From an uncultured Winogradskyella sp. (GTDB lineage: Bacteria; Bacteroidota; Bacteroidia; Flavobacteriales; Flavobacteriaceae), in contig NZ_CANLYI010000002.1 of assembly GCF_947495255.1 (NCBI RefSeq), positions 248,001-312,000 of the forward strand: a DNA stretch of 64,000 bases. Direction: 5' to 3'. Position numbers and translations under genes: made by a program. Below are positions 28,559 through 55,208 of this stretch, in pieces (the stretch's first letter is position 1; each line of letters starts with the position of its first letter). Under the pieces are notes generated by a model that was given only the letters and a program-made list of their open reading frames with translations, did no database searches and was not told where the DNA came from.

Positions 28559-30895
28559 TTACTCTTTATTTCCATAGCCATAATTATAACCATAATTATA
28601 ACCATAACCATAAGACTTATTGGTATCTACACTATTTAGAACGTAAGCAATATTCTTTAGTTTACCAGACTCATATAAATCTTTAGAATAATTTAATAAG
28701 TTTTTCTCTGTATAGTTAGCTCGTACAAGATAAATAGTAGCATCTGCTAATTTAGAGATTAGCATGGTATCTGTTACTAAAATTGTTGGTGCGGTATCAA
28801 CTACTATGTAATCGTACTCTTCCCTTGCTTCTTCTAATAATTTCTCAAAACGTCCATTGGTCAATAAATGAGCCGGATTTGGAGGAATACTACCTGATAA
28901 AATAATATCATGGTTAGGATGCTTTTCAAAACCTTTAATTAAGGCGTCTCTCCAATCGTAGTTTGCATCATGCAAATAATTAGATAATCCTGGCTTATGT
29001 TTTTCTTCTGAAATGTGCGTGTGAATTTGTGGGTTTCGTAAATCTGCACCAATTAATAGAACCTTTCTATTTATACTTGATAGGGACAATGATAAATTGA
29101 TACTTACATAAGTTTTACCTTCACCTTTGATTGTCGATGTACAAAAAATGACACGACCTTTATTATCTGATTTTACAGGTAATATATAGTCTACATTAGA
29201 ACTTAATATTCTAAATGCTTCGGCTTGTACTGAATTATCTTCCGGATTAGTAAAAATTAACTGATCACTTTTTACTTTAGGTAATTCACCTACAATAGGT
29301 ATTTTAGGATTTCTTTCAAGTACATCTTCTCTTCCTTTTACCTTAGTATTTAGTAACTGAATTACATATAGAATTCCAAATGGAATTAATAAACCAGATA
29401 AAAGAGCCATTAGATATATACTTCGAGGATTAGGAGAAATTGGAGAACCTCCAGAAATTGCATATTCAACAACCTTAATTGATGGCTCAGTAATAGCCAA
29501 ATTAATAGCTGCTTCTTCTCTCTTTTGCAGAAGAAATAAATACAAACTTTGTTTAATTTCTCGTTGTCTATTAATATCCGTCATTGCCTTTTCTTTCGCA
29601 GGTAAACTATAAACTTGCGATGAAAACTTTCTATTCTTACGCATAATCTGCGCTTTTGATGCTTTCAATTGCTTCGAATAAGAATCAATTGAAACGAATA
29701 TATTAGATTCTACTCCTTTTAATTTAGAATCTAAAGCGATTACACTCGGATTACTTTCACCTCCACTTACCATTAAATTTTCACGTTCAAAAACAAGTGC
29801 ATTATAATTATCTACTAAACCAGCGATACTTGAGTTACTAATTCCAATATTTGCAGGCAATAATCCTGATTTAACATCCGGTTTCTCTACTGTTTCTTTC
29901 AGTAGGTCTGTAATCATCAGTTGTCTTTCAACCTCAAATAATTCACGTTCTGACAAAGTACGCTGTGAAATTCCCAATTCTGCGTCAGACTCTAGTGTTA
30001 TGAGGTTATTCTTTTGTTTATAATCTTTAATATCTATCTCTATAGAATCTAATTCATTAGCCAATAAGGCATAGCGTTCATCTATAAAATTAATTGTACG
30101 CCGCGATATCTCCTGACGGTCATTAATACCATCCTCATTAAAAACATCTATAAGTGTATTTAATACACGTTCATTTTTAGATTTACTCTGACTCGTATAA
30201 TGTAATTCAAGTAAATCACTATTTGCTCCAAGAACTCCAACTTCGACCCTATTCTTTAAACTTGCAGTTACAGCAGGTACTGAAGACAATCCAACAATAT
30301 AAGTTTTACCAACAAAATTATTAATATCTTTTAGAGTATCTAAACTTAATTCAAAAGGTAGGTTATGATTTGATTTAGTCGTTTCGAAATTTTGAAACAA
30401 CAAAGTTTGCCCAGTACTTGATGGCGTCACCTCAAATGCTTTCGGTTTTACTACTATTTTATAAGAAGAGCTTGTAAATATACTATCATTCCCAACCGTT
30501 TTTAAAATATTAAAAGGCAATTGGCTTATCTCAGTAGTTAACACATTCCCTTCTTCATAATAACGCATTGTTAAATTAAGCCGATCCACTACATTCTCTA
30601 TTATTCTATAGGATTTTAGTATTTCAATTTCGTTTTCAAGATTAATATTAGACCTATTAAATACAAACGCAGAAGATGGTAACTCTAAACCTTTTGTTTT
30701 ATTTAGTATTTTAATTTTTGCACTAGATTTATATACTTTAGGGGTATATCTCAAGTATATTACTGCGGCCACAAATGCTAATACGATTCCTAAAACGAAC
30801 CAGTACCAATAATGTAAGTATTTTCGGATTTCTCGTTTAATAGTCTCACCTTGATCATGACCATTCTGATAATTACTTTCTTGAAGTTGACTCAT
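28559..30895 (-). CDS. wzc: Wzc-type polysaccharide co-polymerase and tyrosine autokinase
   Basis: A 778-aa inner-membrane protein that controls chain length and couples polymerisation to export. It has TM1 about 33-53, a periplasmic Wzz/coiled-coil domain, TM2 near 495-515, and a cytoplasmic BY-kinase with Walker A 'STIKGEGKTYVS', Walker A' 'VLLIGADLRNP' and Walker B 'YIVVDTAP'. The C-terminus is a tyrosine cluster (YGYGYNYGYNYGYG, 7 Tyr) that would be the autophosphorylation tail. One base separates it from wza. No Wzb-type phosphatase gene is seen in the window. Confidence 0.93.
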   Translation of the reverse strand: MSQLQESNYQNGHDQGETIKREIRKYLHYWYWFVLGIVLAFVAAVIYLRYTPKVYKSSAKIKILNKTKGLELPSSAFVFNRSNINLENEIEILKSYRIIENVVDRLNLTMRYYEEGNVLTTEISQLPFNILKTVGNDSIFTSSSYKIVVKPKAFEVTPSSTGQTLLFQNFETTKSNHNLPFELSLDTLKDINNFVGKTYIVGLSSVPAVTASLKNRVEVGVLGANSDLLELHYTSQSKSKNERVLNTLIDVFNEDGINDRQEISRRTINFIDERYALLANELDSIEIDIKDYKQKNNLITLESDAELGISQRTLSERELFEVERQLMITDLLKETVEKPDVKSGLLPANIGISNSSIAGLVDNYNALVFERENLMVSGGESNPSVIALDSKLKGVESNIFVSIDSYSKQLKASKAQIMRKNRKFSSQVYSLPAKEKAMTDINRQREIKQSLYLFLLQKREEAAINLAITEPSIKVVEYAISGGSPISPNPRSIYLMALLSGLLIPFGILYVIQLLNTKVKGREDVLERNPKIPIVGELPKVKSDQLIFTNPEDNSVQAEAFRILSSNVDYILPVKSDNKGRVIFCTSTIKGEGKTYVSINLSLSLSSINRKVLLIGADLRNPQIHTHISEEKHKPGLSNYLHDANYDWRDALIKGFEKHPNHDIILSGSIPPNPAHLLTNGRFEKLLEEAREEYDYIVVDTAPTILVTDTMLISKLADATIYLVRANYTEKNLLNYSKDLYESGKLKNIAYVLNSVDTNKSYGYGYNYGYNYGYGNKE

Positions 30896-30896
30896 T

Positions 30897-31652
30897 TTAT
30901 TTTGTAATTAAAACAATTGTAGTGAAAAGAATTGATACTACAGAAATTAAAGTGCCTACATTACCAACAAAACCAGCGCTTTTAACTTTAGGATTATTAG
31001 GATCAACAATAATAGTGTCATTAGGCTTAACAAAATTAAATGGTCCGTTTAACCAATCAGCAGACGTTAAGTCGATATGAGCTATTTGTTGTATTCCATT
31101 TTCATACCTTATTATTTTAACATCTTCGCGTTTACCATTAATCGTTAAATCACCAGCATAACCTAAAGCTTGTAATAAAGTAACATTCTGCTCTGTAAAA
31201 CTAAAAGTACCAGGTTGGTTAACTTGTCCTAGCACTGTAACTTTAGCATTAACTAATCTTACATCTACCGTTGGATTTTTTAAGTGACCACCATCTACTA
31301 ATAATGCCTTTAAATAAATAGCAAATTGCTGTGTGGTCTTATCTGCAACCGATAACACACCTAATATTGGGAAATTAATCGTTAAATCCTCTGACACCAA
31401 ATACCCATCTAACTGCATTAATTCAACACTGTTTCCTACACCACCTGTTTTTTTATTATATGGAATAGCAGAATCTGGTATTAATGCACTAACGTTAATC
31501 CTTAAAACATCATTAGGTTGCATTAGAGAATTAGTATAGGCAATTTCTTGGTTAGAATATTGATCCGCATCTTGTAAATAAAGAATTTCTTTCTTACTTG
31601 TACATGAAAAAACAAGCATAAAGCAAAATAAAAAACAAAAGTACTTTAACAT
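30897..31652 (-). CDS. wza: Polysaccharide export lipoprotein Wza
   Basis: A 251-aa outer-membrane export channel. The lipobox is 'LVFSC' (Cys near 17). A poly_export domain ('MQPNDVLRINVSALIP', 'GYLVSEDLTINFPILGVLSVADKT') is followed by one SLBB domain ('VTVLGQVNQPGTF'). The C-terminus is a hydrophobic helix ('LISVVSILFTTIVLI'), the amphipathic or membrane helix forming the outer-membrane pore in Wza. It is shorter than E. coli Wza (379 aa), as is usual in Bacteroidota. A promoter element lies just upstream, so wza-wzc may be expressed independently of the rest. Confidence 0.92.
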   Translation of the reverse strand: MLKYFCFLFCFMLVFSCTSKKEILYLQDADQYSNQEIAYTNSLMQPNDVLRINVSALIPDSAIPYNKKTGGVGNSVELMQLDGYLVSEDLTINFPILGVLSVADKTTQQFAIYLKALLVDGGHLKNPTVDVRLVNAKVTVLGQVNQPGTFSFTEQNVTLLQALGYAGDLTINGKREDVKIIRYENGIQQIAHIDLTSADWLNGPFNFVKPNDTIIVDPNNPKVKSAGFVGNVGTLISVVSILFTTIVLITK

Positions 31653-31751: not shown

Positions 31752-32843
31752 CTATTTATTTTTTATCCAATTGAAAATAAAGTATAAAGAATAAAGTATA
31801 GTACCCGAAACTAGTAATAATACCAGTTGCCAATTTATATCAAAATTTCTTGAGAAATAGGTCACAAATATTAACACAATATTTGTTAACACAATTGTTG
31901 TAGTCGTTTGTTTATGTGTAAACCCACAACTTAAAAAGCGATGATGCAAATGATTATTATCAGCAGTAAAAGGACTCTTTTTATGAACTACAATTCTTAT
32001 AAAAAAGATTCTTAACGTATCAAGTAAGGGAAAAAATAATATTGACAACGTTAACACAGGTGAAGAAGAACTAAATAAACTCGTATTTGAACTTTCTGAA
32101 GTATCTATAAATCGTACGGCAAAAACAGCAATAATAAATCCTAAAATCATGGATCCAGAATCTCCCATGAACATTTTTCTTCGTTTCGAAAAATTAAAAT
32201 ACAAAAAAGAAATAAGCGCTCCTATAGCAGAAGCGGCCAGTACAACCATGCTAATATCGTCGTATAAATAAAATAGAATTCCAAAAGCAATACAAGCCAT
32301 CAATGCTAAGGATCCAGCTAATCCATCTACACCATCAATTAGATTAAAAGCATTAATAACCAAAAGATAAACAAAAAGTGTAAACCCAACAGAAATCCAG
32401 TACGGCATAATAGTAATACCTAATATTCCTGAAAAACCATAAATCCTTGTATCTGTAAAAATAATTAAAAGAAATGCTGCCAATAATTGACCAATAAATT
32501 TCTTTCTAGGTGATAATATTAAGATATCATCTTTTAATCCCAAAAAGAACAGTACTGTAATGCCTCCTAATATTAAAAACAAACTCTTGGTCTCTAAAGG
32601 TGCACCTGTAATAGTAAGAGCAACTACAATACTTAAGTAGATACCAATGCCTCCTAAGTTTGGCACTGTACCAGAATGACTACTTCTATGACCTGATTTA
32701 TCTAACAAATTCTTTTTTAAGGCCACTAAAATAATTGCAGGATAACTAGCAAAAGACACCGCTAAGGCTATAAAAATAGCAATAAGAACTAACCAACCAA
32801 CGTAATCTATTGGGTTAAAATTTTCAAGTAATTCTTTTACCAT
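31752..32843 (-). CDS. WecA/MraY-family undecaprenyl-phosphate sugar-1-phosphate transferase (priming enzyme)
   Basis: A 363-aa polytopic membrane enzyme that loads the first sugar phosphate onto undecaprenyl phosphate. It shows about ten hydrophobic spans, 'SGTVPNLGGIGIYLSI' (substrate-loop glycines), 'LKDDILILSPRKKFIGQ' (DD motif), 'NLIDGVDGLAGSLALM' and 'HLHHRFLSCGFTHKQ' (histidine cluster specific to the WecA branch). Donor is most likely UDP-GlcNAc or a related N-acetyl sugar, but the sequence does not prove it. It is the only priming transferase in the cluster. Confidence 0.87.
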   Translation of the reverse strand: MVKELLENFNPIDYVGWLVLIAIFIALAVSFASYPAIILVALKKNLLDKSGHRSSHSGTVPNLGGIGIYLSIVVALTITGAPLETKSLFLILGGITVLFFLGLKDDILILSPRKKFIGQLLAAFLLIIFTDTRIYGFSGILGITIMPYWISVGFTLFVYLLVINAFNLIDGVDGLAGSLALMACIAFGILFYLYDDISMVVLAASAIGALISFLYFNFSKRRKMFMGDSGSMILGFIIAVFAVRFIDTSESSNTSLFSSSSPVLTLSILFFPLLDTLRIFFIRIVVHKKSPFTADNNHLHHRFLSCGFTHKQTTTTIVLTNIVLIFVTYFSRNFDINWQLVLLLVSGTILYSLYFIFNWIKNK

Positions 32844-32940: not shown

Positions 32941-33690
32941 CTATGATACAAACTGCTTTAGTTTAGACACGTTTTTTATGAAAATTGTCACCCAACCTCC
33001 TACATCATTTACTTTAATAGCCCTATAATCTTCCTTTGTTTTCTGCATAATATTTTTCAAACTTCTATTACTCGCTCCTCCTACTCGCATTTTCACAACT
33101 GTTTTAGGAAGAAAATAAAACTTTAAATCATCTTGCTTAAATATACGCAAAATAAAGTCATAATCTGCAGCTATTTTATAAGACAAATCAAAACCACCAT
33201 GTTTATCGTAAAGTTCTTTCTTTAAATATAGTGTTGGATGGGCTGGCATCCAACCTTGCTTTAAAAGTTTAGATCGAAATGGTTCACTTACCCAATTTCG
33301 TATAACCTTATCTGTGTTTTCTAATGCTATATAATGTAGGTTACCATAAACACCATCAACATTTTCACTTTTAAAAGCATTTACAATATCCTCAATAATA
33401 AAAGTTTCTGCTAAAAAATCATCAGAATGTACAAAACCAACAACGTCACCTGTAGCTTTCATTATTCCTTTATTCAAAGCATCATAAATACCCTTATCTG
33501 GCTCAGAATTAAAAACAATTTCTGGGTGTTCTGCCGCTTTTTCTTCTATATAACTTAACGTTTCATCTTTAGAACCACCATCTACAATAATATACTCAAT
33601 ATCACGATAGGTTTGATTCAGAACAGAGTCCATACAAGTCTTAATTGTACTTGCACTATTATAAGTTGCAGTAATTATAGAAACTTTCAT
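32941..33690 (-). CDS. Family 2 glycosyltransferase (WcaA-like, 249 aa)
   Basis: A GT-A fold transferase without membrane spans. It has 'VSIITATYNSASTIKTCMDS', the nucleotide-binding 'IEYIIVDGGSKDETL', 'HSDDF' in place of the DxD, and 'AADYDFILR' as the catalytic region. It probably adds one sugar to the lipid-linked repeat unit. It is separated from the WcaF-type acetyltransferase by three bases, so the two are co-transcribed. Acceptor and donor are unknown. Confidence 0.85.
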   Translation of the reverse strand: MKVSIITATYNSASTIKTCMDSVLNQTYRDIEYIIVDGGSKDETLSYIEEKAAEHPEIVFNSEPDKGIYDALNKGIMKATGDVVGFVHSDDFLAETFIIEDIVNAFKSENVDGVYGNLHYIALENTDKVIRNWVSEPFRSKLLKQGWMPAHPTLYLKKELYDKHGGFDLSYKIAADYDFILRIFKQDDLKFYFLPKTVVKMRVGGASNRSLKNIMQKTKEDYRAIKVNDVGGWVTIFIKNVSKLKQFVS

Positions 33691-33693: not shown

Positions 33694-34242
33694 CTAATTA
33701 TCAATTTTTCTGGTTTTTACTTTAACCGCAGGATTACCACTATAAATCCCATAGGCTTCTAAATTACAAGTTGCCACTGAACCTAAACTAAGAACCGCAT
33801 GACTTTCAAAAATAACACCTGGAGCTACACTACCTTTAGCACCTACCCAACTCCCTTCTTTTAAGTGAATTGGAGCGACAAACAAATCGAAACTTGAGAT
33901 TTTGTAATTATGGTTTCCACAAAGTAAAAGTGCGCCTTGAGAAATACAAACATTGTCTCCTAACGTAACTTGATCTAGGTTATCTATCCAAACGGATTCT
34001 CCGACCCAACAGTTATTACCAATACTAAGTTTCCATGGGTATTTAATAGTAACTTTTGGTTTAATTACAACACCATCACCTATTTTAGCTCCAAATTGTT
34101 TTAACAAAAACAATTTTAAACCTGAAGAGATATTCCAACCGCCTTCAAAAAAAAACCAACTTACAAAATACCATAGAAGTCGTTTTATTTTTGAACCTGG
34201 ATTATACCAACTATTATCATATTTAGACAAGTCTGTTTTCAA
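33694..34242 (-). CDS. wcaF: WcaF-type hexapeptide acetyltransferase (182 aa)
   Basis: A left-handed beta-helix acyltransferase of the colanic-acid WcaF type. It has an N-terminal 'WYNPGSKIKRLLWYFVSWFFFEGGWN' block typical of the subfamily and hexapeptide repeats ('IGDGVVIKPKVTIKYPWKLSIGNNCWVG', '..LGDNVCISQGALLLCGNHNY') with the catalytic His in 'CGNHNY'. It would O-acetylate a sugar in the repeat unit using acetyl-CoA. Confidence 0.87.
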   Translation of the reverse strand: MKTDLSKYDNSWYNPGSKIKRLLWYFVSWFFFEGGWNISSGLKLFLLKQFGAKIGDGVVIKPKVTIKYPWKLSIGNNCWVGESVWIDNLDQVTLGDNVCISQGALLLCGNHNYKISSFDLFVAPIHLKEGSWVGAKGSVAPGVIFESHAVLSLGSVATCNLEAYGIYSGNPAVKVKTRKIDN

Positions 34243-34257: not shown

Positions 34258-35208
34258 TTAAGCTTTATTAGATTTAATTAACCCATCAAAATAATTAATC
34301 GTTTTCCCTAAACCTTCTCTAAGATGAATCTTTGGTTCCCAGTCATTTAACTCTTTTTTAGCCAAATCTATTACTGGTTGACGTTGCATAGGATCATCTT
34401 GAGGCAATGGTAAATGAATGATTTTTGATTTTGAATTAGTCAATTCTATAACCATTTCTGCCAATTCTAACATTGTAAATTCTACTGGATTACCTATATT
34501 AACAGGTCCGACAAAACCATCTCTACTATTCATCATACGTATTGTTCCTTCTACAAGGTCGTCAACATATTGAAAGCTACGTGTTTGTGTACCTTCTCCA
34601 AATATGGTTATATCATCTCCTTTTAAAGCTTGCATTATAAAATTAGAAACAACGCGTCCATCTTGAGGATGCATTCTCGGACCATAGGTATTAAATATTC
34701 TAATAATTTTAATCGCTACTTCGTTTTGTGTGTGATAATCCATAAATAGGGTTTCTGCACAACGCTTACCTTCATCATAACAAGATCGCAAACCTATAGG
34801 ATTCACATTTCCCCAATAACTCTCTGGTTGTGGGTGCACAGATGGATCTCCATAAACTTCACTAGTAGAAGCTTGCAAAATTTTTGCACCTACACGTTTA
34901 GCCAGACCTAACATATTTATAGCTCCCATTACAGAAGTCTTTATCGTTTTAATAGGATTATATTGATAATGAACTGGTGATGCAGGACAAGCCATATTAT
35001 AAATTTCATCAACCTCAATCATATAAGGGTTAATAATATCATGACGTACCAATTCAAAATAATGGTGATCCATTAAATGCTCTATATTATTCTTAGAACC
35101 TGTAAAATAGTTATCTAAACAAATCACTTCGTTTCCTTCATTAAGTAAACGTTCGCATAAATGTGAGCCTACAAAACCCGCACCTCCAGTAACTAAAATT
35201 CTTTTCAT
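34258..35208 (-). CDS. uxs: UDP-glucuronate decarboxylase (UDP-xylose synthase)
   Basis: A 316-aa extended SDR enzyme converting UDP-glucuronate to UDP-xylose. It has an NAD site '[16 protein letters not shown]', a '[17 protein letters not shown]' block specific for UXS, a catalytic Tyr-Lys in '[13 protein letters not shown]', and '[21 protein letters not shown]'. It predicts xylose (or a 4-keto-pentose derivative) in the polymer. UDP-glucose dehydrogenase, needed for the substrate, is not in the window. It overlaps the preceding glycosyltransferase gene by 4 bp. Confidence 0.92.
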
Positions 35209-36368
35209 TTATAATAATTATTTAATGTGTTCAAAAATAAGGCTTTATTTTGTTCTATGAGCTCTGGGTTTTCAGTAAATTTCTTCGAAAAGTTAACAGA
35301 TGCATTAGACCATGTATGATATTCATCTTTGTTCATAGCGCAAAATAATTCTATTGCTGCTATAAACTCATTCTTCTTCGTTAACGGAATATTAAACCCT
35401 AGTTTATCTTTTTCTAGGCCTTGCCATGGTGTTTGGTCTGAAATAACCACTGGACAACCATTTTGCCATGATTCCATAATAACATGACCAAAATTCTCAT
35501 GTTGTGTTGGCAATAATAATATGTGCTGATTAATTAATTTTTTTGAAATGTCTTGATGCGGAATAGCTCCTAAATATTTTACCGAAATATTTTTGGGGAG
35601 TTGTTTTATTTTAATCTCACAATCTTGCCAATATTCCATTTCATCTTTTGGTCCAATAATACTAAAGCTAACGTTATATAAGTTCTTTATTTCAGCCAAA
35701 TAATTAATAGCTTCTCCCAAATTCTTCTTAACCGCAATACGAGATAAAAAAAACACATTAAGCTCGTTTACTCTCTTCTCTTTTGGCTCAATTTTTTGTT
35801 TCGCTTTAGCTGATAAATTTGGAGCTAACAATACATTACATCCTTTCCCAAAATGTGTATATACCTCAAAGGCTTCACTTTCTGCAGTAACATGCCAAAC
35901 TACTTTTTTTTGCAACCCTAAAACCTTAAAAAGGGTTAGGAATATTTTTTTCTTTAATGGCTTAATTTCTAAAGCTCCCTTACCCAACATTCCTCTAGGT
36001 GCCAAAACCTTACGAATGTTTAAATTCTTAAAAAGCATTAACGGTAATAAAGTAAACTTTTGAGAAAATAGTGAATTAAAATACACCACATCAAAAGCTT
36101 CTTTAATAAATAATTGTTTATAATACTTTAAGGTTTGATGAGCTGGATCTAAGTAAACAACTTTAAACCCGTCTTTCTCACTCCATACATTTAATGCCTC
36201 TTCAGGTAAACTTAATGGACTGTCCAAATCTGAGTTAGAGGTCGCAATATAATAATCAAATTCAGTCTTGGTGTGATTTACTAGATTAGCTATGGATTGA
36301 ATAGGGCCACCAGCTTTATAAGCAGGTAAAAACCAATCGATGCATATTAATACTTTCTGTTTCTCCAT
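35205..36368 (-). CDS. Family 4-type glycosyltransferase (387 aa)
   Basis: A GT-B fold transferase. The N-terminal acceptor domain has '[21 protein letters not shown]'. The C-terminal donor domain has '[20 protein letters not shown]' and the nucleotide-sugar site '[22 protein letters not shown]' (a variant of the EX7E motif). It is translationally coupled to uxs (4-bp overlap). The sugar is unknown; pairing with uxs makes a xylosyltransferase a reasonable guess only. Confidence 0.85.
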
Positions 36369-36403: not shown

Positions 36404-37441
36404 TTAATTACTATTTTTTACAGAGTTTATTTGAGCAGTCCATCGCTTTAAATTTATAGTTGAAGCCAAAAACTTACTATTTTTAGACATCTTAAAATAA
36501 TCAGTTTCATCTTGTTCAACTAGCTTTTTTATAATTTGAATCAAAGCCTTTTTATCTGTTGCATCATATGAATATCCATTAAATCCATCAATCAGCAATT
36601 CTGTTGCAGCACCACATTGATATGTAGACACAATTGGCAAACCTGCTAAAGCGGCTTCATGCACAACAACTCCCCAAGCCTCATATAGACTTGGCAAAAT
36701 AAAAGTTCCTGCATTAGTTAACAAACTAGGTATCTCCTCAGGATTCACAAAAGGTGTGTGAATAACATTTGAATGTTTGGGTATTAAATGCTCTAATGGC
36801 CCACTTCCTATAACGTGTAATTTTAAATTACAATCTTTAGATTTCAATAATTCTTCAACAGCCTCAAATAAAATTTCTACACCTTTATGATCTACTATTC
36901 TACCAACAAAAATTAATTGCTTTTGATGCTTCGTTTGGTTAACACTTTCAAAAATAGATTCATCAGCACAGTATAAGCCCGTTAAAATATGTTGAGATTT
37001 AAAACCTAATTTACGTGCATAATAATATTGTGGCTTTCCGGCAACCCATATATGAGTTACATATTTACGAATAAGAAAATTACTAAATAAGGATGCCACA
37101 TATTGTTTTATGGTGCCTAACCATTGATTATCCATGCCTGTTATTACAGGTACACCTTTCGTTTTATAAGTTTTTGCAATTTTTAAATATTGCTTATTCG
37201 TCCAACCTGCAATATATATTAAACTGGGTTTAAACTCATTAACTTCAGCTTGCATAGCACTAAATGCGCCCTCAGAATAATCGCAAATAGTAATCCCTGG
37301 CTCACTTTCTATCTTAAAAGGCGCATCTTTACTTGGTTTCGTTCTGTAGACCAAATATTTATTATTGTTTAAGGCAACATCCTTTCGCATACAAGCCATC
37401 CAATAGCCCGTTAAACGCGTGTAGAGCACTAAAATATTCAT
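36404..37441 (-). CDS. Family 4 glycosyltransferase (345 aa)
   Basis: A GT-B protein. The donor domain has 'LIFVGRIVDHKGVEILFEAV' and the EX7E region 'SLYEAWGVVVHEAALAGLPIVSTYQCGAATELL'-type sequence (in pieces). It starts with a 4-bp overlap onto the Wzy gene stop, so translation is coupled to the polymerase. Specificity is unknown. Confidence 0.87.
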   Translation of the reverse strand: MNILVLYTRLTGYWMACMRKDVALNNNKYLVYRTKPSKDAPFKIESEPGITICDYSEGAFSAMQAEVNEFKPSLIYIAGWTNKQYLKIAKTYKTKGVPVITGMDNQWLGTIKQYVASLFSNFLIRKYVTHIWVAGKPQYYYARKLGFKSQHILTGLYCADESIFESVNQTKHQKQLIFVGRIVDHKGVEILFEAVEELLKSKDCNLKLHVIGSGPLEHLIPKHSNVIHTPFVNPEEIPSLLTNAGTFILPSLYEAWGVVVHEAALAGLPIVSTYQCGAATELLIDGFNGYSYDATDKKALIQIIKKLVEQDETDYFKMSKNSKFLASTINLKRWTAQINSVKNSN

Positions 37442-42843: not shown

Positions 42844-42845
42844 AT

Positions 42846-46871: not shown

Positions 46872-48854
46872 TTACTTAAAAAAAATAGGATTAAAGACTT
46901 TCGATAATTTCTTAGCGCCTTCCTGTGTTAAGTGCTGATTATCATAATATAATGCAGTCTCTTCAAAATTAATCCTATAATGCATCTCTTCATTATCAAA
47001 TAACAAATCGGAAGCATTTAAGACTTTTGCTCCTGCGAGTTCCAATTTATTCTGCACTAAATCAAAAAACCTATTTTGCTCGTTTAGCCCCTCTTTATTA
47101 CATATATATTGAGAGATATTATCTCCAAATAATTCTTTTTTTATTAAAGCTTTTGGTACAGAAATATGATGACTAGGAACCTCTTTGAAAATCCAAACTT
47201 GTGCACCAGCATCATTTAGAGATTTTATGGTGTTCAAAAGATTCATATTAAAATTTCTAACTCCAATCGTATCTCCATTAAACTCCATCATTAATGAATT
47301 ATAACAACTACTCCACCTAGCTGCAAGAACTACATTGGGAATCTTCTTATTTTTAACTTGTTCTAAAATAGCCTTTGACCATGAAGGACTTTGTTCCAAG
47401 AGTGAAAATTTTTGATATATTTTAGATGGTATATTATTAATAATTGGAGCTGTGCTGGTATACCAAGCAGCCGCTACTTTATTGTTTTTACCAGCAGCTT
47501 TTATAACTCCTGGCAGAATAGATCTTGCGTGAGAATCCCCCCACACCAAGACATCAATTACTTCTGAATCAGAATTACCGAAAACAGGAAAATTTCCAGA
47601 TTTTGCTTCCTCCAAACTCAGAGGTAAACTAATTCTATTTTCAACTAAACCTTCTGATTTTGCATTATCATAAGCAATGACTTTTTCACTGTATCGATTT
47701 ACAAAACCTTTATTTAGGTACAATGCAAATCCACATATTAAAAATATCATTGAAACTATTATTGAATAAGCGTATAATGATTTACTATTTTTGGCCAGTG
47801 TTTTTTTTCGGAAAGGTGTTTCTACAAAGCGCCAAGATGCGACTCCTAAAATAAAACTCAGTATAACTATACTCCATTTATACATTGTAGAAAACTCTTC
47901 AAGAGCCCAATAATTAGAAAATGCAATTAGCGGCCAATGCCATAAGTATAATGAATATGAAATAAGACCTATAAAAATAATTGGGCGCCACGTAAATATT
48001 TTAGCAGCTAATGGTAATCGATTATTATAATTAGGAGAAGCTCCTAATATAAACAATGCCGTACCTAAACATGGTGGTATCGCTAATAAACCAGGAAACA
48101 AAGTCTCCTTAGTATATAAGAAACATGGTAAAAGTATTCCTAATAATCCTATACTTACAATTAACTCTCTTACAACTTGTCGTTTTAACAAACTAATTAT
48201 AGGAAGAAGTGCTACTAATGAACCAATTAATAGTTCCCATGCTCGAGTAGGAAGCATGTAGAACGTAAAGGCCTGCATTTTTGGCAATAAAAAAACACTT
48301 AGAGCCAAACTCATAAAAAAAGCTGTAGCCAATACTGTCATTAATTTTATTCTAGAACTTATTTTTGCCCATTTAATCAATGCCCATAATAACAAAGGAA
48401 CTACCATATAGAATTGTTCCTCAACAGATAAAGACCATGTATGAAGTAAAGGTTGTAATTCTGCTGACTCTGCAAAATAATTGGTATTTCTCCAAAAATA
48501 AATATTAGAACTAAAAAAAGTCTGGCTTATCACCGACTTCCCTAATGCTATAAAATCAGATGGCAAAAGTAAAAACCATCCCATAACCATTGTTATAAGT
48601 ACCATAGCAGCCGATGCAGGGAAAATTCGGCGAATTCGTCTACCGTAAAAATTAAGAAATGAAAATCTATTTTCTTGAAGTTCTTTTACAATTAATGAGG
48701 TTATGAGGTAACCGGATATCACAAAGAATATATCGACACCTATAAATCCACCAGGAAAACCAAGACCAACGTGATAAAATACAACTACCAAAACAGCAAG
48801 AGCTCTTAGTCCGTCAATTTCAGGTCTGTACTTAAAACCAGTTATTAGATTCAT
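46872..48854 (-). CDS. OafA/YrhL-type acyltransferase with C-terminal SGNH domain (660 aa)
   Basis: The N-terminal ~370 residues are a polytopic acyltransferase-3 domain ('YRPEIDGLRALAVLVVVFYHVG', 'FFVISGYLI', 'RRIRRIFPA', 'HTWSLSVEEQFY'). A periplasmic SGNH hydrolase-like domain follows, with 'DVLVWGDSHARSIL' (block I) and 'YYDNQHLTQEGAKKL' (catalytic Asp/His region). Proteins of this layout transfer acetyl groups to surface glycans in the periplasm. It would decorate the polymer after flipping. Confidence 0.88.
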   Translation of the reverse strand: MNLITGFKYRPEIDGLRALAVLVVVFYHVGLGFPGGFIGVDIFFVISGYLITSLIVKELQENRFSFLNFYGRRIRRIFPASAAMVLITMVMGWFLLLPSDFIALGKSVISQTFFSSNIYFWRNTNYFAESAELQPLLHTWSLSVEEQFYMVVPLLLWALIKWAKISSRIKLMTVLATAFFMSLALSVFLLPKMQAFTFYMLPTRAWELLIGSLVALLPIISLLKRQVVRELIVSIGLLGILLPCFLYTKETLFPGLLAIPPCLGTALFILGASPNYNNRLPLAAKIFTWRPIIFIGLISYSLYLWHWPLIAFSNYWALEEFSTMYKWSIVILSFILGVASWRFVETPFRKKTLAKNSKSLYAYSIIVSMIFLICGFALYLNKGFVNRYSEKVIAYDNAKSEGLVENRISLPLSLEEAKSGNFPVFGNSDSEVIDVLVWGDSHARSILPGVIKAAGKNNKVAAAWYTSTAPIINNIPSKIYQKFSLLEQSPSWSKAILEQVKNKKIPNVVLAARWSSCYNSLMMEFNGDTIGVRNFNMNLLNTIKSLNDAGAQVWIFKEVPSHHISVPKALIKKELFGDNISQYICNKEGLNEQNRFFDLVQNKLELAGAKVLNASDLLFDNEEMHYRINFEETALYYDNQHLTQEGAKKLSKVFNPIFFK

Positions 48855-48917: not shown

Positions 48918-49877
48918 TTAAATAATTTTCACTTCCTTAATATTATCGATATGTTTCAAAAACCAGTCATAAGTCTTTTCGATTCCCATTCCTAACATTA
49001 CTTTAGCCTTCCAACCTTCATTTTGAAGCTTAGAACTATCCATCAATTTACGTGGTGTACCATCTGGTTTGGTAATATCCCAAACTATTTCTCCTTTATG
49101 ACCCACAATGTTCTGAATAGTCACCGCCAATTCTTTTATAGTAACATCAGTCCCAGTGCCCACATTGTATAAATGTTCTAGTAATATATTCTCAACAGCA
49201 AAAAGTACGGCTTGGGCTAAATCATCTACATGTAGAAACTCTCGCATTGGTGTACCACTTCCCCATAATTTTACAGGAGCGTTGGTTGCTTTAGCTTCAT
49301 GAAACTTTCGCATCATAGCTGGCAACACGTGTGAGCTTTTTAAATCGAAATTATCATTTGGACCATACAAATTGGTTGGCATTAAGCTTACAAAGTCTTT
49401 GCCGTATTGTTTTCTAATAGCTTCACAAGCTTTAACACCTGCAATTTTTGCAATAGCGTACCATTCATTCGTTGGCTCTAAACTATCTGTCAGTAAATAC
49501 TCTTCTTTTAAGGGTTGTGGTGCAAATTTTGGATAAATACAAGAACTTCCTAAAAATATAAATTTTTGAATATCTGCTTTATGAGCTGCATCGATTAAGT
49601 TATTTTGAATCTGCAAATTCTCCATTAAAAATGGATACGGATTTTCATTATTTGCTAAAATCCCACCAACTCTGGCTGCAGCATCTATAATGATATCTGG
49701 TTTCTCATTGTTTATAAAATCGATAACAGCTTGCTGATGTCGTAAATCGAGTTCGGCACTGGTCTTACCTATTATGGTTTTATAACCTTTAGCCTCTAGG
49801 GCTCGCCAAACAGAAGAACCTACCATTCCACGATGACCAGCAATGTATATTTTTGAATCTTTAGATATATTACTCAA
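48918..49877 (-). CDS. fcl: GDP-L-fucose synthase
   Basis: A 319-aa SDR epimerase/reductase converting GDP-4-keto-6-deoxy-mannose to GDP-L-fucose. It has an NADP site '[16 protein letters not shown]', '[18 protein letters not shown]', '[18 protein letters not shown]', catalytic '[14 protein letters not shown]' and '[12 protein letters not shown]'. It overlaps gmd by 8 bp, forming the standard gmd-fcl pair. Confidence 0.95.
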
Positions 49878-50985
49878 AATAATTCATAGTTTTAAAACCT
49901 CCTTCATCAAGGTATTGTTGTTCTTTCATCACCTTAATATCACCTTGCATCATGTCTTTAACTAAAGCGGCTAAATCATATTTACATTCCCAACCTAATT
50001 TATTTTTTGCTTTAGAGGCATCACCTATCAGTAACTCTACTTCTGTTGGTCTAAAATAACGAGGGTCAACAGCTAAAACTTCTTTACCAATTTCAACTTG
50101 ATACTTAGGGTTGTTACATTTTGTAACGTAAGCTTTTTCATCTTCGCCTTCACCTTTAAACTCTAACTCTATACCAACTTCTGCAAAACTCATATGAACG
50201 AAATCTCTAATTCTAGTCGTCTTACCTGTTGCAATCACCCAGTCTTCTGCCTCATCAGCTTGAAGAATCATCCACATCATACGAACATAATCTTTGGCGT
50301 GTCCCCAATCTCTTTGAGCATCTAAATTTCCTAAATGAAACTTATCTTGCAATCCTAATGCAATTCTAGATACTGCTCTTGTAATTTTACGTGTTACAAA
50401 AGTTTCGCCTCTAATTGGAGATTCGTGATTAAATAAAATACCATTACAAGCATACATACCATAAGCTTCTCGATAATTTACGGTTATCCAATAGGCATAC
50501 ATTTTTGCAACTGCATATGGTGACCTTGGATAAAATGGTGTTGTTTCTGACTGCGGCACTTCTTGTACTTTACCATATAACTCTGAAGTAGAAGCTTGGT
50601 ATATTCTGGTTTTCTTCTCTAGGCCTAATAAACGTACGGCATCTAAAATACGTAACGTCCCTAAACCATCTGCATTCCCGGTATATTCTGGAATTTCAAA
50701 TGACACAGCAACATGACTCATTGCTGCTAAGTTATAAATCTCATCTGGTTGAATTTCTTTTATCAATCGTATTAGATTGGTACTATCCGTCATATCACCA
50801 TAGTGTAAATAGAAATTTTGATGATCTACATGTGGATCTTGATATAAGTGATCTATTCGGTCTGTATTAAATAAAGAAGAACGACGTTTTAATCCGTGAA
50901 CTTCATATCCTTTTTTCAATAAAAACTCACTTAAATAGGCACCATCTTGCCCTGTAACTCCTGTGATAAATGCAACTTTACTCAT
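49870..50985 (-). CDS. gmd: GDP-mannose 4,6-dehydratase
   Basis: A 371-aa SDR enzyme making GDP-4-keto-6-deoxy-D-mannose, the precursor of GDP-fucose. Marks are '[25 protein letters not shown]' (NADP site, in pieces), '[14 protein letters not shown]', '[21 protein letters not shown]' with catalytic '[10 protein letters not shown]', and '[16 protein letters not shown]'. A -7 element lies about 50 bp upstream, so gmd may start its own transcript as well as being read from the cys genes. Confidence 0.96.
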
Positions 50986-51036
50986 TAAAATAATTCTCGA
51001 TTTTCGTGCTTAAAACTGCACTTGATAATTTTGACA

Positions 51037-51123: not shown

Positions 51124-51912
51124 TTATTTTACTAAAAACCAAGCATTTAATAACTCTTCTCGGTTATAAAGCATTCGTTTTTTAGTCTCCCAATCAATTA
51201 CTTCGAAACCAGCGTGTTCACAAATTGCCTGACCTGCAGCTGTATCCCACTCCATCGTTGGTGCAAATCTAGGGTAGCAATCTGCCTGTCCTTCTGCAAC
51301 CATACACAACTTTAACGAACTTCCTTTTGAGATTAAATTTACCTCGCCATGTTTTTGTCTCATGTCTGCAACATAAGTTTCTGTTTCTGGTGACATGTGA
51401 GACCGACTTGCTACAACAGTAAATGTTTTATCATTGCGCTCTAAAGGCAATTTCTGACCCAATTTTAATAAATCATCAATATTATAATCATCAATATCCA
51501 CCTTAACTTTAAAAGCGCCTATTTCATTTGTTGAGAAATAAAGATCATTTAAAACTGGCACATAAATAACACCAATAACCGTTTTTTGATTTTCAATTAA
51601 AGCGATGTTAACCGTAAACTCACCATTTCTTTTTATAAACTCTTTGGTGCCATCAATTGGATCAACAATCCATAACTGATTCCAATCTTTTCTATCTAGG
51701 TATGGAATTGACCTGCCTTCTTCTGAAAGCACAGGAATATTAGTCGCACTTAAATGCGCCATTATAACATTATGAGATGCTAAATCTGCCTTAGTCAAAG
51801 GAGAATTATCACCTTTAAGCTCTACGCCAAAATCATCAGAATGATATATTTCTAAAATTTCTTTACCTGCTTCTAATGCTGCAGTAACAGCTATTTTTAA
51901 ATTTTGAATCAT
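51124..51912 (-). CDS. cysQ: 3'(2'),5'-bisphosphate nucleotidase CysQ
   Basis: A 262-aa inositol-monophosphatase-superfamily enzyme that hydrolyses 3'-phosphoadenosine 5'-phosphate (PAP), the inhibitory by-product of sulfotransfer. Metal-binding motifs are 'SPLTKADLASHNVI', 'LSEEG', 'WIVDPIDGTKEFI' and 'EWDTAAGQAICEHAG'. It lies 9 bp after cysN in the PAPS operon, as expected for recycling of PAP. Confidence 0.93.
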   Translation of the reverse strand: MIQNLKIAVTAALEAGKEILEIYHSDDFGVELKGDNSPLTKADLASHNVIMAHLSATNIPVLSEEGRSIPYLDRKDWNQLWIVDPIDGTKEFIKRNGEFTVNIALIENQKTVIGVIYVPVLNDLYFSTNEIGAFKVKVDIDDYNIDDLLKLGQKLPLERNDKTFTVVASRSHMSPETETYVADMRQKHGEVNLISKGSSLKLCMVAEGQADCYPRFAPTMEWDTAAGQAICEHAGFEVIDWETKKRMLYNREELLNAWFLVK

Positions 51913-51921
51913 CTAAAAAAA

Positions 51922-53178
51922 TTATATAATCATTCCTGCTCCAATAGTTTCATTGGTTTGTTCGTCTATTATAATGATACTTCCGGTTTGTCTATTTCTT
52001 TTATAAGAATCATAAAACATTGGTTTAGCTGTTCTAATTGATAAACGTGCGATATCATTCATCTCGATCTTTTCAACATTCTCAATACGATGCAATGTAT
52101 TAATATCAATCTTATATTTTAACTCTTTAACCATACCAACAGATTCATTCGTTGTATGTTTTACAACGACTTTGGTCCTAGCGTGAATTGGCTTTGTACT
52201 CATCCAAGTCACTAATACATCTAAATCTTGTCCGATTTCAGGAACATTATTTTCACGCACAATCATATCTCCACGACTGTTATCTATTTCATCTTCCAAT
52301 GTCATTGTTACAGACATAGGTGCAAAAGCCTCAGCTATCTGTTCTCCATTAAGTTCTATAGTCTTAATTGTTGAAACAAATCCAGATGGTAAAGATTTCA
52401 CTTTATCACCAGGCTTAAAAACACCACCATCAATACGACCTGCAAAACCTCTATAATCTTGATTTTCTAATGTGTGAGGACGAATAACTGATTGAATCGG
52501 AAAACGACAATCTACCAAGTTATAATCGCTAGAGATATGAACCGTCTCTAAATGATACATTAAAGTACTTCCTTGATACCAATCCATGTTCTCAGAACGA
52601 TTCACCACATTATCACCATTTAATGCTGAAATAGGAATAAATTGAATATCGCTAATACCTAACTTAGAAGAAAAGGCATTAAAATCTGAAACTATTCCAT
52701 TATATACATCTTCACTATAATCTACCAAGTCCATTTTATTTACACATACAATAGCATGAGGAATTCGTAAAAGTGAAGCAATAAATGCATGACGATGCGT
52801 TTGCTCCAACATTCCTTTTCTAGCATCAATTAGTATAATGGCTAAATTTGCAGTTGAAGCGCCTGTTACCATATTACGTGTGTATTGAATATGACCAGGT
52901 GTATCTGCAATAATAAATTTACGCTTAGGTGTTGCGAAATAACGATAAGCTACATCTATAGTAATACCTTGCTCGCGCTCTGACTTTAAACCATCCGTAA
53001 GTAACGATAAATCTACATAGTCAAAACCTTTAGATTTACTAGATTCTTCTACAGCATCTAATTGATCTTGAAAAATTGATTTACTATCATATAATAAACG
53101 TCCTATTAATGTACTCTTTCCATCATCTACACTACCTGCAGTTGTAAAACGCAATAATTCTATATCTTGATAATCCAT
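51922..53178 (-). CDS. cysN: Sulfate adenylyltransferase GTPase subunit CysN
   Basis: A 418-aa EF-Tu-like GTPase that with CysD makes adenylyl sulfate (APS) from ATP and sulfate. G1 is 'GSVDDGKSTLIGRLLYDSK' near residue 15, 'REQGITIDVAYRYF' is switch I, 'ADTPGHIQYTRNM' is G3 and 'VCVNKMDLV' is G4. Two beta-barrel domains follow. There is no fused APS kinase; cysC is separate. Confidence 0.95.
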   Translation of the reverse strand: MDYQDIELLRFTTAGSVDDGKSTLIGRLLYDSKSIFQDQLDAVEESSKSKGFDYVDLSLLTDGLKSEREQGITIDVAYRYFATPKRKFIIADTPGHIQYTRNMVTGASTANLAIILIDARKGMLEQTHRHAFIASLLRIPHAIVCVNKMDLVDYSEDVYNGIVSDFNAFSSKLGISDIQFIPISALNGDNVVNRSENMDWYQGSTLMYHLETVHISSDYNLVDCRFPIQSVIRPHTLENQDYRGFAGRIDGGVFKPGDKVKSLPSGFVSTIKTIELNGEQIAEAFAPMSVTMTLEDEIDNSRGDMIVRENNVPEIGQDLDVLVTWMSTKPIHARTKVVVKHTTNESVGMVKELKYKIDINTLHRIENVEKIEMNDIARLSIRTAKPMFYDSYKRNRQTGSIIIIDEQTNETIGAGMII

Positions 53179-53269
53179 TTTTTTTTAATAGTTGTTAGTA
53201 GTTAGTTATTGAACTTTAGTTTTTAGCAAACTTCTCTAAAGTCTAATTCTAATTTCTATGTTTTTTTTT

Positions 53270-54175
53270 CTAAAAGTAACCTTGTTTTTTACGATCTTCC
53301 ATTGCTGTTTCTGCACGTTTATCATCGGCTCTTCCACCACGTTCAGTAGTACGAGTTGTGGCAATTTCTTCAATGATTTTTTCTAAATCATCTGCTTCGG
53401 ATTCTACAGCTCCTGTTATTGGCATATCACCGCAAGTACGGTAACGAATTGTCATATTCACAACTTCTTCGCCTTCTTTTAATTTTATAAATTCTGAATT
53501 TGCCAAAATAACACCATCTCTTACTACACAATCGCGTTGATGAGAAAAGTAAAGTGATGGCAAATCAATATTTTCTAATTTAATATATTCCCAAACATCC
53601 ATTTCTGTCCAGTTAGAAATAGGAAACACTCTAAAATGCTCGCCATAATTTTTGCGTCCATTAAATAGATTCCATAATTCTGGTCTTTGGTTTTTTGGAT
53701 CCCATTGCCCAAACTCGTCTCTGTGAGAAAAGAAACGCTCTTTAGCACGGGCTTTTTCTTCATCTCTTCTTGCGCCACCCATTGCAGCATCAACTTTAAA
53801 TTCCTCTAATGTATCTAAAAGCGAAACGATTTGAAGTGAATTACGAGAAGCATCTGCTCCAGTTTCTTCCTTAGCCCTACCTTTATCTATAGCTTCTTGC
53901 ACAGAACCAACAATAAGTTTAACACCAAGTTTCTCAACTAATTCATCTCTAAAAGCAATTGTTTCAGGAAAATTATGACCAGTATCAATATGGATTAAAG
54001 GAAATGGTATTTTTGCTGGATAGAATGCTTTTTTTGCTAAATGAGTTAGCAAAATAGAATCCTTACCTCCTGAAAATAATAAAACTGGATTTTCAAATTG
54101 TGCTGCAATTTCTCTAATCACAAAAATCGCTTCCGATTCTAATTCTTTTAAATGATTAATTACGTAATTACTCAT
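53270..54175 (-). CDS. cysD: Sulfate adenylyltransferase subunit CysD
   Basis: A 301-aa PP-loop ATP pyrophosphatase-fold subunit. It shows 'PVLLFSGGKDSILLTHLA' (PP-loop), 'LIHIDTGHNFPETI', 'GGARRDEEKARAKERFFSHRDEFGQWDPKNQRPELWNLFNG'-type CysD signature (read in pieces) and 'RYRTCGDMPITGAVES'. It works with CysN. A 91-bp gap to cysN contains no clear terminator, so the genes are probably one operon. Confidence 0.95.
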   Translation of the reverse strand: MSNYVINHLKELESEAIFVIREIAAQFENPVLLFSGGKDSILLTHLAKKAFYPAKIPFPLIHIDTGHNFPETIAFRDELVEKLGVKLIVGSVQEAIDKGRAKEETGADASRNSLQIVSLLDTLEEFKVDAAMGGARRDEEKARAKERFFSHRDEFGQWDPKNQRPELWNLFNGRKNYGEHFRVFPISNWTEMDVWEYIKLENIDLPSLYFSHQRDCVVRDGVILANSEFIKLKEGEEVVNMTIRYRTCGDMPITGAVESEADDLEKIIEEIATTRTTERGGRADDKRAETAMEDRKKQGYF

Positions 54176-54180
54176 GTTAT

Positions 54181-54771
54181 TTATTTTAATTTTTGAATAA
54201 TAAAATCTTTAATAATTTCAACCGAAGACTCTATCGATTGATTATCTGTAATAATTTCTAAATCTGGATTAATAGGCGCTTCATAAGGTGCAGAAATTCC
54301 TGTCATGTTTTTAATTTCTCCGGTCCTTGCTTTTTTATACAAACCTTTTACATCTCTGCGTTCACATTCTTCTAAAGACGTATTAACGTATACCTCAATA
54401 AAATTTTCAACACCAACAATAGATTTTATATTTTCTCTATCCTTAATATATGGTGAAACAAACGCTGCCAATGTAACGACACCTGCATCTACCATGAGAT
54501 GAGCGATTTCCGCAATTCTTCTAATATTTTCAGTTCGGTCCTCAGGCGCAAAACTAAGGTCTTTATTTATACCTTGTCTAATATTATCACCATCCAAACT
54601 AAAAGTAGATATTCCTTTTTTATGAAGTTCTAACTCAACTGCATTTGCTAAAGTAGATTTCCCAGAACCAGATAAACCCGTAAACCATAACAAAAAAGAC
54701 CTATGTCCATTTCTTGTTTCACGATCAGCCTTCGTTATATTATAATCATGCCTTACTGTATTAATACTCAT
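54181..54771 (-). CDS. cysC: Adenylylsulfate kinase CysC
   Basis: A 196-aa APS kinase that phosphorylates APS to PAPS. It has a Walker A 'FTGLSGSGKSTLANAVE', 'FSLDGDNIRQGINKDLSF', 'AAFVSPYIKDRENIK' and 'YKKARTGEIKNMTGISAPYE'. The length is typical. It overlaps the DUF2061 gene by 4 bp and precedes cysD by 5 bp, which implies tight co-expression. Confidence 0.95.
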   Translation of the reverse strand: MSINTVRHDYNITKADRETRNGHRSFLLWFTGLSGSGKSTLANAVELELHKKGISTFSLDGDNIRQGINKDLSFAPEDRTENIRRIAEIAHLMVDAGVVTLAAFVSPYIKDRENIKSIVGVENFIEVYVNTSLEECERRDVKGLYKKARTGEIKNMTGISAPYEAPINPDLEIITDNQSIESSVEIIKDFIIQKLK

Positions 54772-55208
54772 AATTCTCTTTGGGTCTTTAGCTTTTCCAA
54801 TTTCTTTTTTCTAAATCTTTGGTCTAAGCCAAAATTAATTTTATACCATAACTTCTCATGACCAAAATACAATAACATTTTTGTAATTACCTCCGCACCA
54901 CCAATCTTTACTCCTGTCATAGGATTCCCACTAATAATCCAACCTAATATTATAGTATCTAAAGTGCCAACACCTCTCCACGAAAATGTTTTTAACACAT
55001 GACGTTTATTTGAGGATTTTATTGATGACTTAAACCAAATTCTTTCATGAATATAGTACAAAACCATCTTAGTAACCATCTCAAAAGCACCCATTTGCAA
55101 TCCAATAGACAAATCACCAGAAATAAACCATGATAACAATAACGTATCTAAAGTACCTATAATGCGCCAAGTAATTGTTTTTGCTAGATGTCGTTTACTG
55201 AATTTCAA
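54768..55208 (-). CDS. Tandem DUF2061 membrane protein (146 aa)
   Basis: Two copies of the DUF2061 unit are present: residues about 4-60 ('KRHLAKTITWRIIGTLDTLLLSWFISG', 'YYIHERIWFK') and about 66-125 ('KRHVLKTFSWRGVGTLDTIILGWIISG', 'YFGHEKLWYK'). Each has two short hydrophobic helices, so the protein is probably an inner-membrane four-helix protein. The function is unknown. Its place as first gene of the cysC-cysD-cysN-cysQ operon, with a 4-bp overlap, suggests a role in sulfate supply or sulfation, possibly transport, but this is inference. Confidence 0.85.
   Translation of the reverse strand: MKFSKRHLAKTITWRIIGTLDTLLLSWFISGDLSIGLQMGAFEMVTKMVLYYIHERIWFKSSIKSSNKRHVLKTFSWRGVGTLDTIILGWIISGNPMTGVKIGGAEVITKMLLYFGHEKLWYKINFGLDQRFRKKKLEKLKTQREL

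Follow-up and report, generated by a model that had tools for sequence, protein, structure and literature searches.

We describe a block of 25 genes that fills positions 28559-55208 of a 64,000-nucleotide stretch of DNA (the window) from an uncultured Winogradskyella sp. of the family Flavobacteriaceae (assembly GCF_947495255.1, contig NZ_CANLYI010000002.1, positions 248,001 to 312,000). The block is probably a Wzx/Wzy exopolysaccharide or capsule locus whose ATP sulfurylase, CysD/CysN, is shared with a reductive sulfur operon, with CysC and CysQ forming the sulfation branch. In the proposed pathway CysD and CysN would make adenosine 5'-phosphosulfate (APS) and CysC would phosphorylate it to 3'-phosphoadenosine 5'-phosphosulfate (PAPS). 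The sulfotransferase of the block would then put sulfate on a sugar of a lipid-linked repeat unit (fucose, xylose; possibly acylated and pyruvylated), CysQ would clear 3'-phosphoadenosine 5'-phosphate (PAP), and the unit would be flipped by Wzx, polymerised by Wzy and exported by Wzc and Wza. APS would be the branch point, the same CysD/CysN supplying CysH and sulfite reductase of a reductive operon that lost its own cysDN, and PAPS would also serve a second sulfotransferase on another contig (C7).

All 25 genes lie on the minus strand, no two neighbours being more than 154 nt apart, and no plus-strand open reading frame (ORF) of at least 100 aa was found inside 28559-55208. The Wzx/Wzy gene set is complete (priming transferase PF00953, flippase PF01554 and polymerase PF04932, each over cut-off, with Wzc and Wza present), and cysD, cysN, cysC and a sulfotransferase with PAPS-type motifs stand inside the block, as in a PAPS-equipped polysaccharide cluster. 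A preliminary description of this DNA had read the block as a locus for a sulfated Wzx/Wzy polysaccharide; that reading is well supported by the full gene set, the sulfotransferase motifs and the co-occurrence of cysC with sulfotransferases in 99 genomes. It is very probable that the locus directs the synthesis and sulfation of a secreted sugar polymer, sulfate in the polymer being predicted from these genes.

The PAPS genes comprise CysC, the APS kinase (54181..54771, minus strand; PF01583, 218.6 bits; NF003013 and TIGR00455 over cut-off), which is the single match in the genome; CysD, the small subunit of ATP sulfurylase (53270..54175, minus; TIGR02039, 429.6 bits, over cut-off), the sole copy found in the genome; CysN, its GTPase subunit (51922..53178, minus; TIGR02034, 544.7 bits, over cut-off); and CysQ, a PAP phosphatase (51124..51912, minus; TIGR01331, 264.5 bits, over cut-off). 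In named genomes, CysC loci with 83-88% identity belong to Winogradskyella in 14 of 15 cases, the remaining one being from 'Flavobacteriales bacterium ALC-1'. The strain's own genome (G000; 4.21 Mb, 99.96% complete; the window is C2:248001-312000) holds two PF01507 matches, namely the CysD of the window and a 209-aa CysH at C2:346838-347299. CysH and an adjoining sulfite reductase lie at C2:345-347 kb, about 35 kb past the window on the same contig. The earlier statement that cysH, cysI and cysJ are missing is thus true of the window only and not of the whole genome. The reductive genes form a same-strand run in the order Rrf2, one-domain DUF2061, CysH, a 697-aa protein of the sulfite/nitrite reductase family, tetrapyrrole methylase, pyridine nucleotide-disulfide oxidoreductase, 2Fe-2S ferredoxin, hexapeptide transferase and a PALP-family enzyme; its later genes can be read as cobA-like, FNR-like, serine acetyltransferase-like and cysteine synthase-like. 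Neither cysD nor cysN occurs within this run. The sulfite reductase (L006:8673-10766) bears a C-terminal HEPN domain (PF05168, 26.2 bits), and a SAM-II (long loop) riboswitch (RF01726, 55.8 bits, L006:12380-12460) lies just ahead of an S-adenosylmethionine synthetase gene adjoining the operon.

A profile search, which covered CysD (CysN copies were not counted separately), found no second cysD in the own genome, and a Sat-type sulfurylase (PF01747) had no match there. Given a single cysD, the absence of Sat and a reductive operon that has no cysDN, the CysDN of the block should also feed cysteine synthesis; barring a copy missing from the assembly, it appears to be the sole APS source for cysteine synthesis from sulfate. 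Among the genus genomes with listed cysH and cysD, 45 of 47 carry cysD next to cysC and nowhere else. The possibility that an assembly gap conceals a second cysDN was considered and rejected because the single-copy state also occurs in the one-contig genus genomes G010 and G037, although a gap in this strain is not wholly excludable. It had been proposed that the PAPS genes are dedicated to sulfation, with cysteine made from another sulfur source or through another ATP sulfurylase. Such a dedicated module finds some support in the single strand and short gaps that unite cysC, cysQ, sulfotransferase and export genes, and in three genus genomes (G005, G011, G012) that keep cysC and cysD without a listed cysH, so that the module can exist without the reductive pathway. 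It is nevertheless very improbable here, given the single cysD, the absence of Sat, the apparently intact reductive operon, the same state in the 45 genus genomes and the second sulfotransferase on contig C7. The mark of a dedicated duplicate PAPS module, another ATP sulfurylase for assimilation, was not found in the own genome; by gene content, one ATP sulfurylase for both reduction and sulfation fits an APS branch-point pathway of the mycobacterial type. The claim of dedication is therefore given up for CysD and CysN and may still hold for CysC and CysQ. The preliminary description had itself named, as the finding that would speak against it, a sole PAPS source for cysteine synthesis with cysH next to it; this is nearly the case, the source appearing to be the sole one but cysH not standing beside these genes.

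The assignment of CysC to the sulfation branch rests on a comparison of 99 genomes, in which a sulfotransferase was a match to PF13469 or PF17784 in the per-genome rows and the absence of cysC meant that the window's CysC had no tblastn-type match at E 0.001. Presence of cysD and cysH was taken from the matches listed, 'no cysH' meaning none listed (G093 and G087 each have one weaker, unlisted PF01507 match) and contig-end fragments in G084 and G087 being counted as cysD. Both cysC and a sulfotransferase occurred in 61 genomes, cysC only in 8, a sulfotransferase only in 2 and neither in 28 (p 2.9e-15). The same association was seen inside the genus (43/6/0/8 in the same order, p 1.8e-6) and outside it (18/2/2/20, p 1.5e-7), where the two genomes with a sulfotransferase only (G065, G089) have a listed cysH and no cysD. 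Counted by genus, the 27 genera outside Winogradskyella gave 15 with both, 11 with neither and 1 with cysC only (PF13469 alone). Outside the genus, cysH was unrelated to sulfotransferases (p 0.55), and cysC with cysH likewise gave p 0.55. Ten genomes with cysH and cysD had no detected cysC, and none of the ten had a sulfotransferase; where cysD was present and no cysH was listed (15 genomes), cysC was found in 14 and a sulfotransferase in 13. CysC is thus best read as the sulfation branch, as is CysQ by its position and known function, and CysDN look common to both branches. This points to a way of predicting sulfated glycans from sequence in marine Bacteroidota, with cysC, not cysD or cysH, as the mark of the sulfation branch.

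A second alternative takes cysDNC and cysQ as an ordinary assimilatory PAPS pathway of the E. coli kind at the end of a capsule locus; the sulfotransferase would simply tap it, or would have some other target. PAPS reductases lack 4Fe-4S cysteines, and the own CysH likewise has neither the CC nor the CxxC cysteines found in 4Fe-4S APS reductases; it may therefore depend on PAPS, like the E. coli enzyme, in which case CysC too would be shared. Within the genus, G008 is the one genome with a listed cysH in which cysC was not detected, and the genome paper on Zunongwangia profunda, in the portion available, read cysC-cysD-cysN as assimilatory (PMC2864250). We nonetheless regard this alternative as unlikely, because CysH of the same class occurs without detected cysC in G008, G057, G058 and G073, because cysC outside the genus follows sulfotransferases and not cysH, and because the motifs of the sulfotransferase are kept. 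A second CysH class was listed by score in 16 genus genomes, with CC and CxxC present in the two that were read (G024, G047); G047 carries both classes. Under the shared-CysDN reading APS would be the substrate of the own CysH, although in its own lineage PAPS could still serve in that role.

The sulfotransferase (43778..44383, minus; Sulfotransfer_4 type, 201 aa, TTG start as listed) matches PF17784 with 71.9 bits against a cut-off of 22.8. Its KTGTT loop and R-x4-W-x2-S motif, which we take to bind PAPS, align with those of 15 relatives (R-x5 in some). Thirteen of the 15 fetched relatives have genes matching the glycosyltransferases or sugar-nucleotide enzymes of the block within about 5 kb, in the same 11-kb stretch. 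The second sulfotransferase of the own genome (L143:9376-10236, contig C7; PF13469, 49.2 bits) also stands among genes weakly matching glycosyltransferases. Across the 40 genus genomes that have cysC together with a listed sulfotransferase, 17 of 82 listed sulfotransferase matches lie within 20 kb of cysC, as compared with about 0.9 expected by uniform placement in a genome of an assumed 3.7 Mb; outside the genus the figure is 25 of 78, in 9 of 18 genomes. Linkage is thus strongly enriched yet not a rule, and PAPS must therefore often work in trans.

Several observations weigh against the proposed reading. The genomes do not count as independent cases. Within Winogradskyella, cysH is likewise tied to sulfotransferases (41/6/2/8, p 6.5e-5) and to cysC (p 3.4e-6), so that only the wider sample separates the branches, not the genus data alone; over all 99 genomes cysH with sulfotransferases gave p 0.0036 and cysD with sulfotransferases p 8.4e-7. 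A sulfotransferase match is missing from 8 of the 69 genomes with cysC, and of the 40 genus genomes that combine cysC with a listed sulfotransferase, only 13 show the two within 20 kb of each other. No close relative of the window's sulfotransferase was found in the 99 genomes, the best matches elsewhere having 28-37% identity in 12 other genomes, and a single-sequence structure prediction of it reached a predicted local distance difference test score (pLDDT) of 35 and was not used. Sulfotransferases can also act on non-sugar substrates. Many cysC loci may accordingly make an unsulfated polymer or use an unrecognised transferase while supplying PAPS in trans. Carried further, the PAPS of the present locus would serve sulfotransferases elsewhere, its own polymer would be unsulfated, and the 201-aa protein would sulfate a small molecule or glycolipid. 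The 27 of 40 genus genomes with no listed sulfotransferase within 20 kb of cysC speak for this, as do the weak matches to solved chains in the PDB, whose names suggest no polysaccharide role (phmmer; 9kf1, SgdX2, E 2e-4, the next at 0.31). The sulfotransferase gene stands, however, inside the cassette, between glycosyltransferase and acyltransferase genes, and this position, together with the surroundings of its 13 relatives, makes an in-trans role with an unsulfated polymer appear rather improbable.

The shared use of CysDN would be explained by a loss from the reductive operon. Two other genomes of the genus (G008, G038) and three of the family (G057, G058, G059) have the order DUF2061-cysH-cysD-cysN-SiR-cobA-FNR, where SiR denotes sulfite reductase, whereas the own genome and G052 have DUF2061-cysH-SiR-cobA-FNR, with cysDN missing between cysH and SiR; in G073 DUF2061-cysH-cysD-cysN is present and SiR is not adjoining. 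In a tree of 48 CysD rows (from 80 named loci, reduced to those with a number that gives remainder 2 when divided by 4, duplicate proteins removed), the 9 cysH-linked copies fall on one side of a branch with support 100/99, and the copy of the window is among the 38 cysC-linked ones; the bootstrap was not fully settled. Among 75 Flavobacteriaceae genomes, one per genus, 62 have both cysH and cysD among the matches listed; in these, cysD adjoins cysH in 33 genera and does not in 29. Scores of the non-adjacent CysD are 142-154 bits except for one of 163 (G125, whose cysH stands at the end of a contig, so that adjacency cannot be assessed), as against 156-167 bits for adjacent ones, and two CysD copies were listed in 3 genomes. 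Judged by score, the unlinked cysD copies of this sample would be of the sulfation type. In the present strain, the assimilatory ATP sulfurylase has apparently been replaced by the copy of the sulfation operon. A reverse case is found in G059 (L140:6669-15503), where cysC, cysQ and a sulfatase are adjacent, a sulfotransferase lies about 5 kb off and the reductive operon holds the only cysD; sulfation in that genome seems to draw on the assimilatory genes.

The first gene of the operon, absent from the gene list of the preliminary description, encodes a DUF2061 membrane protein in a two-domain form (54768..55208, minus; PF09834, 139.6 bits), and a one-domain form precedes cysH in the reductive operon (L006:11393-11653). 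In the 99 genomes, 77 of 86 DUF2061 genes have cysC, cysH or cysD at a distance of no more than 1.6 kb, and 52 of the 86 are two-domain forms adjoining cysC. Among 148 genomes of the phylum, 11 of the 15 DUF2061 genes outside the own genome are near these genes, the other four being weaker matches (at most 65 bits). Against such a link, DUF2061 is missing from 11 genomes with cysC and is not found next to 12 of the 36 class I cysH genes. A model built from 45 aligned sequences (pLDDT 84) is a helical bundle of four long helices and a shorter C-terminal one; it had no fold match in the PDB with E below 1.6, and the sequence had no PDB match up to E 1. In G043 a two-domain DUF2061 gene (L145:9085-9519) stands beside fcl and gmd in a polysaccharide-like locus, apart from the cysC locus of that genome. 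Among open-licence papers, four were listed that name DUF2061, each a single time. This membrane protein without known function gains a testable context from its neighbours. We tentatively suggest, as a possibility that we hold at somewhat under even chances, that Winogradskyella and perhaps nearly half of the sulfate-reducing Flavobacteriaceae genera have lost the assimilatory ATP sulfurylase and replaced it by that of the sulfation operon, and that DUF2061 belongs to sulfate activation as a membrane component so far overlooked, with a role in, for example, the entry of sulfate. If this is true, genes at the constant end of a surface-polysaccharide locus that is otherwise highly variable are needed for cysteine synthesis.

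This variability was seen when 20 cysC loci were mapped, of which 13 loci of the genus share the gene order of the window. The five genes of the PAPS end have relatives of at least 60% identity in all 13 (medians 78-97%). At the export end, Wza and the priming enzyme are kept in 13 of 13 and Wzc in 12 of 13 (medians 62-70%), Wzc in G010 being cut by the end of the fetched stretch. The nine genes from the glycosyltransferase at 38819 to the AT3 gene ending at 48854 have no relative of at least 60% identity in the 13 loci, and for the sulfotransferase, the pyruvyl transferase, one glycosyltransferase and the AT3 protein there was no match over 70% of the length; one weak sulfotransferase-like match (22 bits) occurs in G004. 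The G+C content is 26% at 44-46 kb and 34% at the PAPS end. Six other loci of the genus have cysQ ahead of cysC and a different downstream set, and G098, from another family, shows a further variant of the cysC locus. Judged by gene order and identity, the layout is that of an exchangeable surface-polysaccharide locus with constant ends. The view of the whole 26 kb as one inherited, self-contained unit was consequently rejected: the synteny comparison with relatives finds the ends kept in 12-13 of 13 loci and the middle cassette, including the sulfotransferase, not conserved. Primary sulfur metabolism would thus be tied to a variable surface-polysaccharide locus, which should put its constant end under other selection than the middle.

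The remaining genes were assigned by Pfam, run on all 25 proteins with a match for each, and by NCBIfam, run on 20 (omitting three GT2 proteins, AT3 and DUF2061); all are on the minus strand. Following cysQ are Gmd, GDP-mannose 4,6-dehydratase (49870..50985; TIGR01472, 588.5 bits, over cut-off), and Fcl, GDP-L-fucose synthase (48918..49877; NF047922, 465.1 bits, under its cut-off of 500). The middle of the block encodes an AT3 acyltransferase fused to an SGNH domain (46872..48854; PF01757 and PF19040), the Wzx-type flippase (45275..46798; PF01554 MatE, 34.3 bits, over cut-off), a hexapeptide-repeat acyltransferase (44538..45278; PF00132, 45.4 bits) and, beyond the sulfotransferase, a polysaccharide pyruvyl transferase (40887..41780; PF04230, 49.9 bits) and the Wzy-type polymerase (37438..38742; Wzy_C/O-antigen ligase domain, PF04932, 45.6 bits). 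The seven glycosyltransferases comprise three GT2-like ones (42846..43715, 38819..39748 and 32941..33690; PF00535) and four GT4-like ones of the PF00534/PF13692 kind (41764..42918, 36404..37441 and 35205..36368 with PF00534; 39756..40886 with PF13692); the listed start of the one at 41764..42918 overlaps the preceding gene by 73 nt, and its true start is probably internal. The gene at 34258..35208 encodes a UDP-glucuronate decarboxylase (UDP-xylose synthase; phmmer against 4gll and 2b69, 415 bits); its match to the human enzyme (E ~2e-123) settles UDP-xylose synthesis, which Pfam and NCBIfam alone leave open. It is followed by a WcaF-family acetyltransferase (33694..34242; NF007797, 220.6 bits, over cut-off), the priming polyprenyl-phosphate sugar-1-phosphate transferase of the WecA/MraY superfamily (31752..32843; PF00953, 128.4 bits), the Wza-type outer-membrane export protein (30897..31652; PF02563 and SLBB) and the Wzc-type co-polymerase and tyrosine autokinase (28559..30895; Wzz, GNVR and AAA_31; TIGR01007 over cut-off). 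Every gene type named in the preliminary description, including that for UDP-xylose synthesis, was thus found on the minus strand, but its phrase 'self-contained' with 'every step' goes too far, as no sulfate-transporter family matched among the 25 proteins by Pfam (the genome beyond them was not searched for one).

A promoter-like TTG-N18-TANNTTTG site (55647..55675, minus), of the Bacteroidota-type consensus, lies about 440 nt ahead of the first gene; it is weak evidence because 12 such sites occur on the minus strand of the 64 kb. No Rfam family was matched in 27000-56500. In 44000-56500, sigma-70-like sites numbered 67, against 66.8 in shuffled sequence, and terminator-like sites 7, against 4.4 (sd 2.1), which is little excess. 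Beside the locus, 55716-59288 encodes a protein of 1190 aa that ends in a sorting tail for Por (type IX) secretion, and the next ORF starts at 59788 and continues past the end of the window.

Flavobacteriaceae are chiefly known for breaking down the sulfated glycans of algae; many members of the family also seem equipped to produce sulfated compounds themselves. The preliminary description called known bacterial sulfation loci few, which needs tempering for the PAPS genes, since 78 of the 80 fetched cysC loci also carry cysD, and stands for loci as complete as this one, a minority as judged by the 13 of 40 genus genomes. Among the open-licence PMC papers listed in literature searches, no report was found of a Winogradskyella sulfation locus or of the loss of assimilatory cysDN in flavobacteria.

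PAPS genes and sulfotransferases in capsule clusters, with sulfated polymers, are described in the consulted parts of the reports on Vibrio sp. KMM 8419 and Cobetia marina KMM 1449 (PMC11641403, PMC11766843). The Vibrio authors regard cysC/cysN/cysD with sulfotransferases as a hallmark of sulfated polysaccharide synthesis, and the present locus likewise has cysC, cysN, cysD and a sulfotransferase inside a polysaccharide cluster; in the Vibrio strain, however, cysC/cysN/cysD are present as second copies and the polymer is exported by an ABC transporter, whereas here the cysD is the sole one found and the system is Wzx/Wzy (PMC11641403). Cobetia marina shares cysN/cysC, cysD, cysQ and a sulfotransferase in a capsule cluster, with a determined structure of the sulfated polymer; its export, however, is of the ABC-transporter (kps) type and its gene set includes a sulfate permease, and DUF2061 is not noted in the text available (PMC11766843). 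The synechan xss cluster of Synechocystis 6803 is also an exopolysaccharide cluster with sulfotransferase genes, but it is cyanobacterial, and the term PAPS is absent from its main text as accessible (PMC8205485). Mycobacterium tuberculosis has one sulfate-activating complex for the reductive branch and for a sulfation branch with CysQ; in the accessible portion of that source it is not described within a polysaccharide locus, and, unlike there, the own-genome CysH lacks the 4Fe-4S cysteines (PMC3141025). In rhizobia, sulfate is similarly activated for sulfated surface polysaccharides (M. loti nodPQ), but according to the section available there are two complexes there, NodPQ and CysDN, and one here (PMC6192434). 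A further case is Zunongwangia profunda SM-A87, also of the Flavobacteriaceae, in which cysC, cysD and cysN are adjacent and a PAPS reductase gene lies elsewhere; from the locus numbers in the part of the paper available, one may guess that these genes are close to its polysaccharide cluster, whereas its authors read them as assimilation (PMC2864250). PAPS genes with a sulfotransferase in a capsule cluster are thus already known, and what is new is a sulfation operon that holds the only ATP sulfurylase found in its genome. By its gene content, the Winogradskyella locus appears to combine the PAPS genes of such capsule clusters with two-branch sulfate activation.

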